DNA from: Lutibacter sp. Hel_I_33_5
GTDB taxonomy: Bacteria; Bacteroidota; Bacteroidia; Flavobacteriales; Flavobacteriaceae
DNA: 64,000 bases
Direction: 5' to 3'
Assembly: GCF_007827455.1 (NCBI RefSeq)
Contig: NZ_VISM01000001.1
Coordinates: 1,155,501 to 1,219,500 of the forward strand
Both the position numbers and the translations under genes were made by a program. The notes beneath the pieces were generated by a model. It was not told the DNA's origin and did not search any database. It saw only the letters and a list, made by a program, of their open reading frames with translations. Every line of letters starts with the position of its first letter. The first letter of the stretch is position 1. Positions 38,308 through 43,580 of this stretch are shown here, piece after piece.

Positions 38308-39741
38308 ATGCAACCACTTCATGTTTTATTTTTAATCATTGGCTATTTCGCAGTGTTGATATTCATTTCTTACATCACTGGAAAATCTGCTAATAACGAA
38401 ACTTTCTTTAAAGCAAACAACTCGTCGCCTTGGTATTTAGTGGCTTTCGGAATGATTGGCGCATCACTTTCTGGTGTCACATTTATTTCTGTTCCTGGTT
38501 GGGTAGAAGCACAAAGTATGAGTTATATGCAAATGGTTTTGGGGTATATTGTTGGATATGCAATTATCGGCTTGGTGCTACTCCCACTCTATTACAGATT
38601 GAATTTAACTTCTATTTACACCTATTTACAAGACCGTTTTGGAAATTATTCTTATAAAACTGGCGCCTCATTTTTCTTATTATCAAGAACAATTGGTGCT
38701 GCTTTTCGATTATTTTTAGTCGCAAACGTCTTACAATTATTATTGTTTGACGCGTATGGAATTCCGTTTTGGGCAACCGTTACGATTACTATTTTACTGA
38801 TTTGGCTATATACTTTTAAAGGAGGAATAAAAACGATTGTTTGGACAGACACCTTACAAACCTTATTTATGTTAATCGCCGTAGGAGTTTGTATTTATAC
38901 TATTTCTGGCGAATTACAAATCAGTAATTTATTTTCTTATGTAGCCGATAGCGAATTATCTAAAACCTTCTTTTTTGATGACTGGAAAACTGGAAATTAC
39001 TTTTGGAAACGATTTTTTGCTGGTGCTTTTATAGCAGTAGTTATGACAGGCTTAGATCAAGATATGATGCAAAAAAACTTGACATGCAGAAATTTAAAAG
39101 ATGCGCAAAAAAACATGTTTTGGTTTACTATCGTTTTGGTAGTTGTTAACTTTTTCTTCTTAGCACTAGGTATTTTATTAACCGATTACGCTCAAAAAAA
39201 CGGAATCGATGCTCATAAAGATTTATTATTTCCAACCATTGCTGGTAAAGGGTATTTAGGATTATCTGCTGCTTTATTCTTTTTATTAGGATTGATTGCT
39301 GCTGCGTATTCTAGTGCAGATTCTGCTTTAACGTCTCTTACCACTTCTTTTAGTATTGATATTTTAGAAATTGATAAAAAAGAAGACAAAGCACAACAAG
39401 AAAAGTCAAGAAAAAAGATTCATGTATTATTTTCTTTTGTTTTAATAGCTACTATTTTAATATTTAAATACTTTATTGCTGATGAAAGTGTGATAGCAAA
39501 AATCTTCACATTTGCAGGATACACTTATGGTCCTTTATTAGGCTTATATGCTTTTGGATTGTTTACAAAACTAAACGTAAAAGACAAACTGGTTCCTTTA
39601 ATATGTATCCTTTCTCCTTTTATTTCATTCGGAATAAATGAATTCACTAAAGCATCTTTTGGGTTTGATTTTGAATTTTTCATTCTAGTATTGAATGGCT
39701 TACTTACTTTTATTGGATTATATTTGATTAAAAAGAAATAA
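38308..39741 (+). CDS. Sodium:solute symporter family protein
   Basis: 477 residues with about thirteen membrane segments. The SSS family shows in SSPWYLVAFGMIGASLSGVTFISVPGWVEAQSMSYMQMVLGYIVGY, the KGGIKTIVWTDTLQTLFML segment and MTGLDQDMMQKNLTCRNLKDAQKNM, followed by the sodium-site-like AAAYSSADSALTSLTTSF. It takes up a small solute with sodium; the substrate is not predictable (sugars, amino acids and anions are all possible). It appears to be a single gene. Confidence 0.92.
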   Translation: MQPLHVLFLIIGYFAVLIFISYITGKSANNETFFKANNSSPWYLVAFGMIGASLSGVTFISVPGWVEAQSMSYMQMVLGYIVGYAIIGLVLLPLYYRLNLTSIYTYLQDRFGNYSYKTGASFFLLSRTIGAAFRLFLVANVLQLLLFDAYGIPFWATVTITILLIWLYTFKGGIKTIVWTDTLQTLFMLIAVGVCIYTISGELQISNLFSYVADSELSKTFFFDDWKTGNYFWKRFFAGAFIAVVMTGLDQDMMQKNLTCRNLKDAQKNMFWFTIVLVVVNFFFLALGILLTDYAQKNGIDAHKDLLFPTIAGKGYLGLSAALFFLLGLIAAAYSSADSALTSLTTSFSIDILEIDKKEDKAQQEKSRKKIHVLFSFVLIATILIFKYFIADESVIAKIFTFAGYTYGPLLGLYAFGLFTKLNVKDKLVPLICILSPFISFGINEFTKASFGFDFEFFILVLNGLLTFIGLYLIKKK

Positions 39742-39803
39742 TAGATAAACTTAATCTTGGCATAAAACTTCAATAATAAAGTTATGTGATAGCTTTAAAA
39801 AAA

Positions 39804-39819
39804 TGGCATAATTCTTGCA
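39804..39819 (+). promoter_or_regulatory. Sigma-54 type (-24/-12) promoter
   Basis: TGGCATAATTCTTGCA is a full match to the sigma-54 consensus TGGCAYRNNNNTTGCW. It lies 35 bases before the ATG at 39855, giving a leader of about 25 bases. A weaker TGGCATAAAACTTCA lies upstream at about 39759. No Bacteroidota -7 box is evident here. Confidence 0.65.
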
Positions 39820-39854
39820 GATATTTTAAGAAATAATTAACAAAAGCAAAAACT

Positions 39855-40517
39855 ATGAAAAGAAATGTCACTTACCTTGTTATTTTATCAATCATGATTT
39901 CTTCATGTTCTGCTAAAAAAGAAATTGCTCAAAATTTTAATGAAAATTTTCACATAAGTCAATTTATTTCTAAAATTGATGGAGAAAAACAAATACTAAA
40001 TGAATTAGTTTTTGGAACAAATTACATTAAAAAACCTACAGATATACAAAAAGCACTCTATGATAAATTCGGCAAATGGAATACCAAAACTTATATAAAA
40101 AACACTAATGAACCAATATTAATTTGGGAAAACATCTCTTTATTTGACCATCTAGATAGTAAATTTACTATAGCATCTTATGGAGGAATAAGTTTAAATA
40201 AAAAAGTGGCTTCAGTTATCATTTTAAATAAAAACAGAGCAGATATCTTATCTGAAAAATCACCGATTAGAAACCAAGTAGCTTATGAGTTTTCTAAGCT
40301 GCTAAGAAATAAAAAATCGAGTAATGAATTTTTAAATATTTACTTAAGTGAGTTTCACCCTAATATAAAAGATAAATCAATCTATGTTTACGGAACTAAT
40401 TATAAGAGATTTGATTATATAAACGCTAGAAAAGGAAATTTTGACTTACCTGCTAAAACTATAGTTTACACATATGACAACTACGGATTTAACATTAATG
40501 AAAATACAAACTATTAA
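39855..40517 (+). CDS. Small lipoprotein, first of a tandem paralogue pair
   Basis: 220 residues, family not recognised. A lipoprotein signal ends at Cys18 (ISSCSAKKEIAQ). Up to about residue 174 it aligns without gaps to the next gene at roughly four in five identical residues. After that the C-terminal ~45 residues are unrelated (NYKRFDYINARKGNFDLPAK). The conserved part contains GKWNTKTYIKNTNEPILIWENISLFDH, and a mixed alpha/beta domain is likely. It is the first gene after the sigma-54 promoter. Confidence 0.75.
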   Translation: MKRNVTYLVILSIMISSCSAKKEIAQNFNENFHISQFISKIDGEKQILNELVFGTNYIKKPTDIQKALYDKFGKWNTKTYIKNTNEPILIWENISLFDHLDSKFTIASYGGISLNKKVASVIILNKNRADILSEKSPIRNQVAYEFSKLLRNKKSSNEFLNIYLSEFHPNIKDKSIYVYGTNYKRFDYINARKGNFDLPAKTIVYTYDNYGFNINENTNY

Positions 40518-40535
40518 TAATTTTAATTAATCATT

Positions 40536-41243
40536 ATGAAAAAAAAGATCTCTTACCTTGTTATTTTATCAATCATGATTTCTTCATGTTCTGCTAAAAA
40601 AGAAATTGCACAAAATGTAAACGAAAACTTCTATATAAATCAGTTTACATCTAAAACTGAAGGAGGAAAACAAATACTAAATGAATTAGTTTTCGGAACA
40701 AATTACATCAAAGAACCTACTGATATACAAAAAGTACTTTATGATAAGTTTGGTAAATGGAATACCAAAACTTATATAAAAAACACTAATGAACCAATAT
40801 TAATTTGGGAAAACATCTCTTTATTTGACCATATAGATAGTAAATTTACAATAGCATCTTTTGGAGGAATGAGTTTAAATAAAAAAATTGCTTCTGTAAT
40901 TGTTTTAAATAAAAATGGAGCAGATATCTTATCAGAAAAATCTCCAATTAAAAACCATATTGCGTATGAATTTTCAAAGTTACTTAGAAATAAAAAAACT
41001 TCTAATAAGTTTATTAAAGAATATATAAATGAATTCCACCCATATTTAAAAGACAAAAGTAAATATGCAGGTGGATTGCTTAAAATGTATGTTCATCCTA
41101 ATGGTAATAAAATTTCAACAATTTCTGACAACTATCTTCAAGTAAATTATTCTACATGGCCACAAATAACTTACAACAAAGGAGGTAAGGCAACTGTACA
41201 TTCCTTACTAGCAGGAAATTTAGGTGGTTTTTTGGGGAATTAA
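40536..41243 (+). CDS. Small lipoprotein, second of a tandem paralogue pair
   Basis: 235 residues with the same lipobox as its neighbour. DNA is identical to the first copy over 58 bases (40552-40609) in the signal peptide and 78 bases (40755-40832) in the middle, including silent sites. Its C-terminal ~60 residues differ completely and end Gly-rich (TVHSLLAGNLGGFLGN). Eighteen bases separate it from copy one. The function is unknown; duplication with a swapped tail suggests a common anchoring part and a variable effector or binding part. Confidence 0.75.
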   Translation: MKKKISYLVILSIMISSCSAKKEIAQNVNENFYINQFTSKTEGGKQILNELVFGTNYIKEPTDIQKVLYDKFGKWNTKTYIKNTNEPILIWENISLFDHIDSKFTIASFGGMSLNKKIASVIVLNKNGADILSEKSPIKNHIAYEFSKLLRNKKTSNKFIKEYINEFHPYLKDKSKYAGGLLKMYVHPNGNKISTISDNYLQVNYSTWPQITYNKGGKATVHSLLAGNLGGFLGN

Positions 41244-41289
41244 TTAAACTTTATACATTTCTATTTAACAGACAAGTATATAAATCAGT

Positions 41290-41715
41290 ATGAAAAAAAG
41301 AATTATTTTAATACTACTACTTACATCAACCACTACGTTTAGCCAATTAAAAATTACAGGGTATTTTGATGCCAAAATTGGATTAAATTATGCTTTTACA
41401 GATAATTTTCAAGTTGAACTAAGTGCTAACGATAATTTAAACAGTGAATTTGGTGTAAATTTAAGCATACTCTATAAAATCATCAACAAAGAAGATTATA
41501 ATCTTAATTTTGGAGCTGGAATAACAACGTTTCCGTTTCATTCGAAATTCCTTCCTTTTTACGAGAGTGCTTTTTTACCTTTACAAATAGAAATCACACC
41601 TTTTAAAGAATTACGAAATTTTGGATTAGTTGTAGAAACTGCCTATCATTTTTCTGAACTAAATGGTAAATCTGGAATTCGTAATTCAGTTGGTATTCGA
41701 TATATTTTTGATTAA
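41290..41715 (+). CDS. Small secreted beta-rich protein, possibly outer membrane
   Basis: 141 residues, not recognised. The signal peptide ends TTFSQ at about residue 19. The remainder alternates hydrophobic and polar residues (ITGYFDAKIGLNYAFTDNFQVELSAND ... GVNLSILYKI ... LNFGAGITTFPF) and ends in an aromatic strand (SVGIRYIFD), like a small outer membrane barrel. It is 46 bases after the second lipoprotein and may share its transcript. Confidence 0.7.
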   Translation: MKKRIILILLLTSTTTFSQLKITGYFDAKIGLNYAFTDNFQVELSANDNLNSEFGVNLSILYKIINKEDYNLNFGAGITTFPFHSKFLPFYESAFLPLQIEITPFKELRNFGLVVETAYHFSELNGKSGIRNSVGIRYIFD

Positions 41716-41735
41716 ATTTATCGGAAATCTAAATC

Positions 41736-42272
41736 ATGTACAAAAAATCATTTATTATAATCGCTTGCTGTGTTTTATTTTCTTGCGGAAGCGGACGAAG
41801 TTTTCAATCTTTTTTTAATCAACATAAAAATGATATTGGCGTAACCGCTTTTCAGGTTCCAAATTTTATGCGCGCCTTAGTGAGAACTATCTCTCCAGAA
41901 ATTAATACGCTTTTTGGAAATGTAAGAGATTTTAAATTCATCACTTTTAATGATATTTCAAAAATGAAACAAACTGAATTAATTACAGAAATAAATGCAG
42001 TTACAGCAAATAAATTTACTGATGTCTTAAGAAAAAATACCTTAGAAAAAACCAAAATAGTTTCTGTAAAAGAAGATGGTGATGTTGTAACCCAAGCCAT
42101 CATTTTTAATTCAACCTTAGAAAAAACGACTGCTTTCTATTTAAAAGGAAGGTTTGACCCTAATCGTATTAAATCATTATCAGAAACCAATCAATTTGAA
42201 AATTTATCAAATAAGCTCATTCAGAATTATCAATCTACACCTTTAATACCTGGATTTAATCCAAATAATTAA
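41736..42272 (+). CDS. Lipoprotein, DUF4252-like
   Basis: 178 residues with lipobox LFSCGSG at about Cys17. The body (FFNQHKNDIGVTAFQVPNFMRALVRTISPEINTLFGNVRDFKFITFNDIS) resembles DUF4252 proteins, which are short Bacteroidota lipoproteins of unknown role. The match is from memory of the family pattern, so it is tentative. It lies 20 bases after the small secreted protein and two bases before the DUF1684 gene. Confidence 0.7.
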   Translation: MYKKSFIIIACCVLFSCGSGRSFQSFFNQHKNDIGVTAFQVPNFMRALVRTISPEINTLFGNVRDFKFITFNDISKMKQTELITEINAVTANKFTDVLRKNTLEKTKIVSVKEDGDVVTQAIIFNSTLEKTTAFYLKGRFDPNRIKSLSETNQFENLSNKLIQNYQSTPLIPGFNPNN

Positions 42273-42274
42273 TC

Positions 42275-42889
42275 ATGAAAAAGATATATTTATTATGCTT
42301 CTTAACTGTATGCATTTCTTGTAATTCTCAAGACAAAAGAGCTTTGGTCGGAGAAACCGAATATCAACAGAAAGAAAATAGTAGGTTTAAAGATGCTTCG
42401 AAATCACCTTTAGATAAGAAAGATTTAAAAAACTTTAAAGGTTTAGAATTCTTTCCAATAGATTCAACCTTTATTGTAAATGCTACCTTTACTAAAATTG
42501 TTGATGCTCCTATTTTTGAAATGGCTACTACTACTGATAGAAAACCATTATATAAAAAATATGGGGTATTAAATTTTATAATTAATGGAAAAGAATTACA
42601 ACTTACCATTTATCAAAGTCAAAGTAATTTAGCCAGTGAAGAATATGAAGATTATTTGTTTTTACCTTTTACGGATGACACTTCAGGAGAAGATTCTTAT
42701 GGTGGTGGACGTTATATGGATGTAATGATTTCTGATATTAATAAAGACGGTACTGTTGCCTTAAACTTTAACAACACATACAATCCTTATTGTGCTTATA
42801 GCGATCGTTACTCTTGTCCGTTAACGCCAAGAAAAAATCATTTAGACATTGAGATTAACGCAGGAATTAAGGTTTTTAAGAAGCATTAA
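42275..42889 (+). CDS. DUF1684 lipoprotein
   Basis: 204 residues with lipobox CISCNSQ (about Cys16). The DUF1684 features are LKNFKGLEFFPIDSTFIVNATFTK, YGVLNFIINGKELQLTIYQSQ, YLFLPFTDDTSGEDSYGGGRYMDV and the C-terminal NFNNTYNPYCAYSDRYSCPLTPRKNHLDIEINAG motif. The domain is common but uncharacterised; the conserved Cys-Ala-Tyr-Ser and Cys-Pro positions suggest a functional site. The last gene of the five-gene envelope set. Its 3' end overlaps the convergent crotonase gene by 14 bases. Confidence 0.87.
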   Translation: MKKIYLLCFLTVCISCNSQDKRALVGETEYQQKENSRFKDASKSPLDKKDLKNFKGLEFFPIDSTFIVNATFTKIVDAPIFEMATTTDRKPLYKKYGVLNFIINGKELQLTIYQSQSNLASEEYEDYLFLPFTDDTSGEDSYGGGRYMDVMISDINKDGTVALNFNNTYNPYCAYSDRYSCPLTPRKNHLDIEINAGIKVFKKH

Positions 42890-43580
42890 TAGAAATATTA
42901 CCAGCGCTATCTAATTCAATTGCTTTTTCTAAAGCATCTAAATGTGGTTTTCTAACTTTTAATTTTGTTTCTGCATGTGCTTTTCTGTTTAACTTAGCAG
43001 ACATTTCTGCTACTTTAATTGCAGTGGGTAACAAATGGTTTTCTGGTACAATAATATCAAAGAAACCTGCTTTTATCGCATCCTTAGGGTTAAAGATTTC
43101 AGCATTATTCACACACCTGTTTAAATACACTTCTGATAATCGAGATTTAGCAATAGCAATTCCAGCATGATGCATCGTCATTCCAATCATCACTTCATTT
43201 AAACCGATTTTAAACTCACCTTCTACCCCTATTCTATAATCTGAAGACAGTAATAAAAAAGCACCTTTAGCAATTGCATGACCAGAGCATGCTATGATAA
43301 TTGGTTTTGGAAAAGACAACATTCTCAATGAAAGTAGAGAACCTTTTGTGACTAATTCTTTTGCAGATTCAGGCGATTTTGTCATCACTTTCAAATCAAA
43401 TCCAGCAGAAAAAATCCTAGGTTGCCCAGTTAAAATCACAACTTTATTATCTTCTTCAGCTTTGTCAAAACTAGTATTTAATCCCTCAATAACTTCATGA
43501 GAAATAGCGTTTGCTTTTCCGTTATTAATGGTAATTATTGCATAATTTTCTTCTGACTGATATTTTACTGCTTCGTTCAT
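42876..43580 (-). CDS. Enoyl-CoA hydratase/isomerase family protein
   Basis: 234 residues, a short crotonase. The fold motifs are AIITINNGKANAIS, the oxyanion-hole segment PRIFSAGFDLKVM, and CSGHAIAKGAFLLLSSDYRIG. The catalytic glutamates of classic enoyl-CoA hydratase are not clearly placed, so isomerase, hydrolase or other acyl-CoA chemistry is possible. It is followed (in its own direction) by the convergent DUF1684 gene and preceded by crcB across a 69-base gap. Confidence 0.88.
   Translation of the reverse strand: MNEAVKYQSEENYAIITINNGKANAISHEVIEGLNTSFDKAEEDNKVVILTGQPRIFSAGFDLKVMTKSPESAKELVTKGSLLSLRMLSFPKPIIIACSGHAIAKGAFLLLSSDYRIGVEGEFKIGLNEVMIGMTMHHAGIAIAKSRLSEVYLNRCVNNAEIFNPKDAIKAGFFDIIVPENHLLPTAIKVAEMSAKLNRKAHAETKLKVRKPHLDALEKAIELDSAGNISINAS

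Follow-up and report, generated by a model that had tools for sequence, protein, structure and literature searches.

A candidate sigma-54 promoter upstream of an inserted lipoprotein pair in Lutibacter sp. Hel_I_33_5

Introduction

A stretch of 64,000 nucleotides from Lutibacter sp. Hel_I_33_5 (contig NZ_VISM01000001.1, positions 1,155,501 to 1,219,500; this whole 64-kb stretch is called the window below) contains, just upstream of five genes of the same strand, a sequence which resembles the -24/-12 promoters of the sigma-54 factor, RpoN. The question is whether this sequence is a promoter and, if it is, which of the five genes it serves. In Bacteroidota, most of the RpoN promoters known so far are predicted ones. 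A preliminary description of the window proposed that the five genes may form a sigma-54 regulated envelope operon.

The sequence evidence suggests, with a probability of about 0.6, that the site is a working sigma-54 promoter for a pair of lipoprotein genes inserted at this place. The pair seems to have been added recently to a regulon common to the relatives, rather than to be part of a conserved envelope operon. What stands of the preliminary proposal is the presence of rpoN and of activators in the genome, and a site which fits the core and the distance found in the genus; what does not stand is the set of five genes as a conserved unit. The site and the five genes are the following:

39804..39819, + strand: candidate sigma-54 -24/-12 promoter TGGCATAATTCTTGCA, proposed on its pattern match, its fit to the genus pattern and its grpE-like distance to the ATG
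39855..40517, + strand: lipoprotein 1, 220 amino acids (aa), no Pfam family, with a C-terminal tail of its own
40536..41243, + strand: lipoprotein 2, 235 aa, tandem paralogue of lipoprotein 1
41290..41715, + strand: small outer-membrane beta-barrel-like protein, 141 aa, a name carried by the proteins of two relatives in the sources
41736..42272, + strand: DUF4252 lipoprotein (42.3 bits vs a cut-off of 23.9)
42275..42889, + strand: DUF1684 lipoprotein (154.8 bits vs a cut-off of 25), partner of DUF4252 in 18 relatives

The five genes extend from 39855 to 42889 with gaps of 18, 46, 20 and 2 nt, as described before, and the DUF4252 and DUF1684 assignments of that description are borne out by Pfam, both being above the cut-off.

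The candidate site

TGGCATAATTCTTGCA matches the pattern TGGCAYRNNNNTTGCW with zero mismatches and is the sole perfect match in the window. Its core is TGGCA-N6-TTGCA, with the GG at -24, the GC at -12 and the fixed spacing between them, and 35 nt separate its end from the ATG at 39855. The coordinates, the full match and the distance given in the preliminary description are thus correct on the sequence, and its estimate of the rarity of such a match in one window was fair, since 0.03 perfect matches are expected per 64-kb window (arithmetic from 30.1% GC). Genome-wide, such matches are not rarer than expected by chance. The perfect match alone was rejected as proof of a promoter, two per genome being about what chance gives, and the evidence must therefore rest on the position of the site and on the organism's own RpoN sites. 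The -24/-12 pattern as such is enriched in the genome: with at most one mismatch it occurs 104 times, vs 29 times for the reversed pattern. In the window, 30 matches with at most two mismatches are found vs 25.6 expected.

Conserved sites in the genus

The genus set consists of 30 genomes, the own genome being one row in each family count. TGGCA-N6-TTG is present upstream of lon in 30/30 genomes and upstream of grpE in 29/29 (no grpE was matched in the 30th genome, and the start codon is not certain for a few of the grpE genes). It is also present upstream of the gene of a 300-aa lipoprotein in 27/27 loci, this gene being found in 27 of the 30 genomes:

G000:C1:1784172-1785071 (L011, L275): 300-aa lipoprotein, no Pfam family, with the conserved TGGCA-N6-TTG site

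The site of the 300-aa lipoprotein lies 42–50 nt upstream of the ATG across the 27 loci, and at -48 in L300, a locus which ends at a contig edge. This protein is a strong predicted target of RpoN.

The 86 conserved sites of the three families were collected with the TGGCA-N6-TTG pattern, so that the invariance of these positions is there by construction, yet every locus examined had such a site. A stricter first pattern found the grpE site in 14/29 genomes, vs 29/29 for the native pattern. The base preceding TGG is T in 82 sites, A in 3 and G in 1, and just 14 of the 86 have the C of the -12 GC. These families, with a site in every genus locus examined, provide a native consensus from which the -12 C is mostly absent, and a target shortlist for the role of RpoN in marine flavobacteria. 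The site at 39804 has the genus core TGGCA-N6-TTG.

As a separate observation, the sequence GTGTCAA, possibly a regulator site, occurs in the 220 nt preceding the -24/-12 site in 79% of the grpE loci (L145-L173).

Native sites in the genome

TGGCA-N6-TTG occurs 107 times in the genome of Hel_I_33_5, vs 73 times for the reversed control pattern. The counts of placement cover 100 of the 107 sites. According to a crude rule, 25 of these 100 are outside any open reading frame (ORF) of 130 aa or more, and 12 of the 25 are 20–70 nt upstream of the ATG of an ORF. When only ORFs of at least 90 aa are considered, 10 of the 100 listed sites are at 20–70 nt, vs 0.97 expected; the chance rate uses genes of at least 90 aa, while the listing of sites uses ORFs of at least 55 aa. 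The genes behind the 12 sites (those without a Pfam domain are named by eye) are given in two parts:

Part 1: CspA type, grpE, secreted 279-aa protein, ClpC-type ATPase (Clp_N, AAA), lipoprotein 1 (39855), DUF3575
Part 2: 300-aa lipoprotein, lipoprotein (1785673), small membrane protein (1988845), 87-aa lipoprotein, QueA-like, DUF547

The distance from the TTG to the start codon is 37 nt for the 39804 site, compared to 37 nt for grpE, 38 nt for CspA and 34 nt for the 300-aa lipoprotein. The base preceding TGG in the 12 sites is T in 8, A in 2 (including the 39804 site), G in 1 and C in 1. When the 16-bp core alone is scored, the 39804 site is above the held-out medians of the three families (10.3 vs 8.3 for grpE, 13.4 vs 10.8 for lon, 14.9 vs 9.3 for the lipoprotein); chance would give 0.5 sites with such a core in 64 kb, and in the window it is outscored at two other places. 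The 39804 site is probably a member of the native RpoN set, although not a typical one.

The leader between the end of the upstream symporter gene and the ATG at 39855 is 113 nt long and AT-rich. No TTG-N17-23-TAnnTTTG sequence was found in it, and a generic sigma-70 scan of 39600-43000 gave 16 matches vs 20.8 expected.

RpoN and its activators

The preliminary description left rpoN and an enhancer-binding protein to be looked for elsewhere in the genome. There is one copy of rpoN (Sigma54_DBD, PF04552, E 1.3e-50). A genome domain search found a strong sigma-54 activator domain in two genes, one complete and one split, the other matches being weak (20–37 bits):

G000:C1:2285000-2295000 (L274): cluster of the single-domain activator, in the order miaB, small ORF, activator, lptE, TPR-like, secG, groES (LptE named by Pfam, the remaining ones by eye)
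G000:C1:1139488-1139989 (L003, L004): second activator, an NtrC-type response regulator in two overlapping frames, with the break just past the GSFTGA loop

The complete activator has 407 aa, with an AAA+ Sigma54_activat domain from residue 13, a visible GAFTGA loop and a C-terminal helix-turn-helix of the Fis type; no receiver domain was found by domain search. Copies which are 81–85% identical are present in 12/28 genus loci compared. In the own genome, groES is preceded by TGGCACAATTACTGAC, a TGGCA-N6-CTG variant located 68 nt upstream of the ATG. The NtrC-type regulator is unbroken in 13/28 genus loci, where it is 84–95% identical to the two pieces; its split may be a true frame change or an assembly error.

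PspF was considered as an identity for the 407-aa activator and rejected, the score being 266.7 bits vs a cut-off of 443.55 for TIGR02974 (NCBIfam). Near the activator cluster, the gene of a 698-aa secreted protein is found, in which lectin-like repeats and a phospholipase-C-like part are recognized by eye (L274:7841-9937; G000:C1:2292840-2294936).

The lipoprotein pair

Lipoproteins 1 and 2 are 81% identical across their first 180 residues and are paralogous, as was noticed before. The likeness of their genes starts only about 10 nt upstream of the ATG, which indicates that the promoter was not duplicated with lipoprotein 2. Neither the 194 genomes searched nor the protein database yielded a close copy of the pair; the single-sequence search, which covered 5.8 billion proteins, retrieved lipoproteins 1 and 2 and nothing else. 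With a profile, 22 proteins were retrieved, lipoproteins 1 and 2 among them, and none of the 22 has a Pfam domain; the best relatives are 24–44% identical. The scan of genome contigs with lipoprotein 2 gave one distant locus, and a PDB sequence search with the lipoprotein profile gave nothing up to E = 1.

The predicted structure of lipoprotein 2 has a mean pLDDT (predicted local distance difference test) of 68.2 and a pTM (predicted template modelling score) of 0.67; residues 31-170 are mostly at 76–92 and the tail, 179-235, is below 50. The fold matches of this model are weak, a BamC-like one being among them.

An insertion behind the symporter gene

Two features lie upstream of the candidate site:

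38308..39741, + strand: sodium:solute symporter (SSF, PF00474), upstream neighbour
39758..39773, + strand: degenerate second copy of the site, TGGCATAAAACTTCAA, 46 bp upstream of 39804, with 2 mismatches and the TTG missing

The symporter is conserved (53/58 genomes, E up to 1e-150). Its surroundings were compared in 30 genus loci (L311-L340), the own genome and 29 relatives. The gene which follows it varies widely, and since there are many different followers, the spot behind the symporter (39741 in the window) looks like an insertion spot. In 2/29 relatives the symporter is directly followed by the barrel gene, at 2 and 14 nt. The insert which separates the two genes in Hel_I_33_5 is 1.55 kb long, comprises the site and the lipoprotein pair, and has a GC content of 25.0% vs 30.1% for the window. 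A TGG..TTG sequence within 220 nt of the symporter end is found in this genome only, apart from a loose match inside the barrel gene (L312).

The genes downstream of the pair

The order of the five genes was not found in the relatives, in which parts of the set lie apart. The five genes are thus a mosaic of this lineage. None of the five proteins is above any NCBIfam cut-off. The product of the barrel gene matches no Pfam family up to E = 1, and the gene is present in 9/104 genomes, own included. A -24/-12 site with at most two mismatches precedes it in 1/8 relatives, L310, whose barrel is a 32% match and whose one-mismatch site overlaps the end of the preceding gene.

DUF4252 was matched in 21 relatives; three weak ones (L079-L081) were left out, and in the 18 which were kept DUF4252 and DUF1684 are adjacent. 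Neither the symporter nor the barrel gene is found within 1.5 kb on either side of them in these 18 relatives (0.5 kb upstream for one locus). A perfect -24/-12 site in the 300 nt before DUF4252 is found in 0/18, and a one-mismatch site in two, at -141 and -295. TAnnTTTG, on the other hand, is present within 70 nt of the DUF4252 start in 10/18 relatives, and the window copy keeps one at -33:

41703..41710, + strand: TAnnTTTG element TATTTTTG, 33 nt before the DUF4252 gene, within the end of the barrel gene

This element has no TTG at 17–23 nt upstream. The DUF4252-DUF1684 pair probably keeps its own vegetative promoter.

Alternative explanations

Several results weigh against a promoter at 39804. 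The genome of 3,101,420 bases contains 2 perfect matches to TGGCAYRNNNNTTGCW, for about 1.3 expected (arithmetic from 30.1% GC), and the other one is intragenic, within a 300-aa lipoprotein gene. The base preceding TGG is A, not the genus-typical T. With a 24-column matrix trained on the three conserved families, own-genome rows left out, the site scores 10.7, compared to 18.6–22.7 for the sites of grpE, lon and the 300-aa lipoprotein in the same genome, and chance gives about 13 sites of at least this score per 64 kb. When eight own-genome sites are added to the matrix, there are about 17 such chance sites, and 14 places in the window outscore 39804. This low score is largely due to the AAAA preceding TGG. 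The core scored with the base preceding TGG gives 1.8 expected sites per 64 kb and four higher places in the window. The strong excess of sites at 34–42 nt from a start (7 sites, 5 with ORFs of at least 90 aa, vs 0.18 expected) concerns a range which was picked post hoc. The enhancer search found no 7-mer common to the grpE, lon and lipoprotein promoters beyond A/T runs, and one of the two activators is split in this genome. Lastly, a -24/-12 site was found in 0/16 loci upstream of the distant homologues of the pair, among which there is no orthologue (18 homologue loci, minus L053 and L057 which had no BLAST match; 2 of the 16 have an unusable start or a masked upstream region).

The chance-level count of perfect matches, the A in place of T, the weak score with flanks and the want of an orthologous promoter to show conservation are what a chance match would give, in which case transcription of the pair would start at a vegetative promoter that escaped recognition, or would come through from the symporter gene. 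The simple scan for terminator-like sites, which found none in 39600-43000, is consistent with read-through. This explanation is nevertheless rather unlikely, considering that the position and the core of the site fit a native set with a low background (0.97 expected vs 10–12) and that the leader is without TTG-N17-23-TAnnTTTG. A related possibility is that the insert merely displaced the barrel gene from a symporter operon, whose promoter dominates, the site giving at most a minor transcript. The short spacing of the symporter and barrel genes in the two relatives suggests their co-transcription, and the outcome of the terminator scan fits here as well, but the 113-nt AT-rich leader carries a -24/-12 site at the native spacing, which makes this possibility distinctly improbable.

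The preliminary proposal, which sees the five genes as a single RpoN-dependent transcript whose products share an envelope function, agrees with their common strand, their gaps of 2–46 nt, the same lack of terminator-like sites between them and the fact that a crude rule flags all five proteins as exported. It appears doubtful, however, for a unit built from parts which lie apart in the relatives, the more so as DUF4252-DUF1684 is without perfect sites in the relatives and often has a nearby TAnnTTTG, which the window copy shares. A promoter at 39804 which serves the inserted lipoprotein pair is the reading we prefer.

Proposed mechanism

In the preferred reading, the RpoN holoenzyme would bind the TGG and TTG boxes as a closed complex, to be opened by an AAA+ activator. 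For this role, the single-domain enhancer-binding protein from the miaB–lptE–TPR–secG–groES cluster is the likeliest candidate; the alternative would be the response regulator of the NtrC type, whose gene is split in Hel_I_33_5. The lipoprotein pair, and perhaps the barrel gene too, would thereby join a genus-wide RpoN regulon made of lon, grpE, the conserved lipoprotein and probably groES. The gene content of this regulon suggests that the pair would be transcribed when lon and grpE are induced, under protein-folding or envelope stress. Transcription may extend into the barrel gene, while DUF4252-DUF1684 probably starts separately.

The two lipoproteins would be exported to the envelope and anchored there, a role in barrel assembly being a weak lead: if the weak BamC-like fold match holds, they would serve as accessory lipoproteins of outer-membrane assembly, produced under folding stress. 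If the 39804 site is true, it would represent the entry of a lineage-specific gene pair into the RpoN regulon. One may speculate, with little confidence, that this regulon grows by insertion, in that cassettes behind the symporter bring or acquire a -24/-12 promoter which captures both the cassette and the old neighbour, the barrel gene.

Comparison with known systems

PspF, of the phage-shock response, is likewise a single-domain AAA+ activator without a receiver domain. The activator described here differs in being under the TIGR02974 cut-off and in being adjoined by miaB, lptE, secG and groES. BamC, a lipoprotein of outer-membrane barrel assembly, was compared to lipoprotein 2 by fold, with a weak match. 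No literature on this locus was found among the titles listed.

The available part of PMC12316311 reports that in Flavobacteriia the predicted sigma-54 promoters are enriched for GrpE and related chaperones, ATP-dependent proteases and TonB, and it cites sigma-54-dependent transcription of grpE in Flavobacterium psychrophilum and Bacteroides thetaiotaomicron. These proteostasis promoters have the same boxes and target classes as those described here, lon and grpE carrying a site in every genus locus examined. Unlike the targets in that part of the paper, which are given by COG family with no such genes named, the 39804 site precedes an accessory lipoprotein pair.

In PMC3162934, sigma-54 is proposed as a controller of the bacterial exterior, including lipoproteins. 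Unlike in this proposal, exported proteins are not significantly in excess among the genes behind the sites found here (6/12 vs 20/56 window genes, P = 0.51), according to a crude rule which overlooked one protein that is likely to be secreted (530194) and counted as exported some window ORFs whose products probably are not. As in the proposal, lipoprotein genes are found behind sigma-54 sites, one of them in 27/27 genus loci. Promoters of this kind, and their use for lipoprotein genes, are thus already known; the 39804 site is probably a new member.

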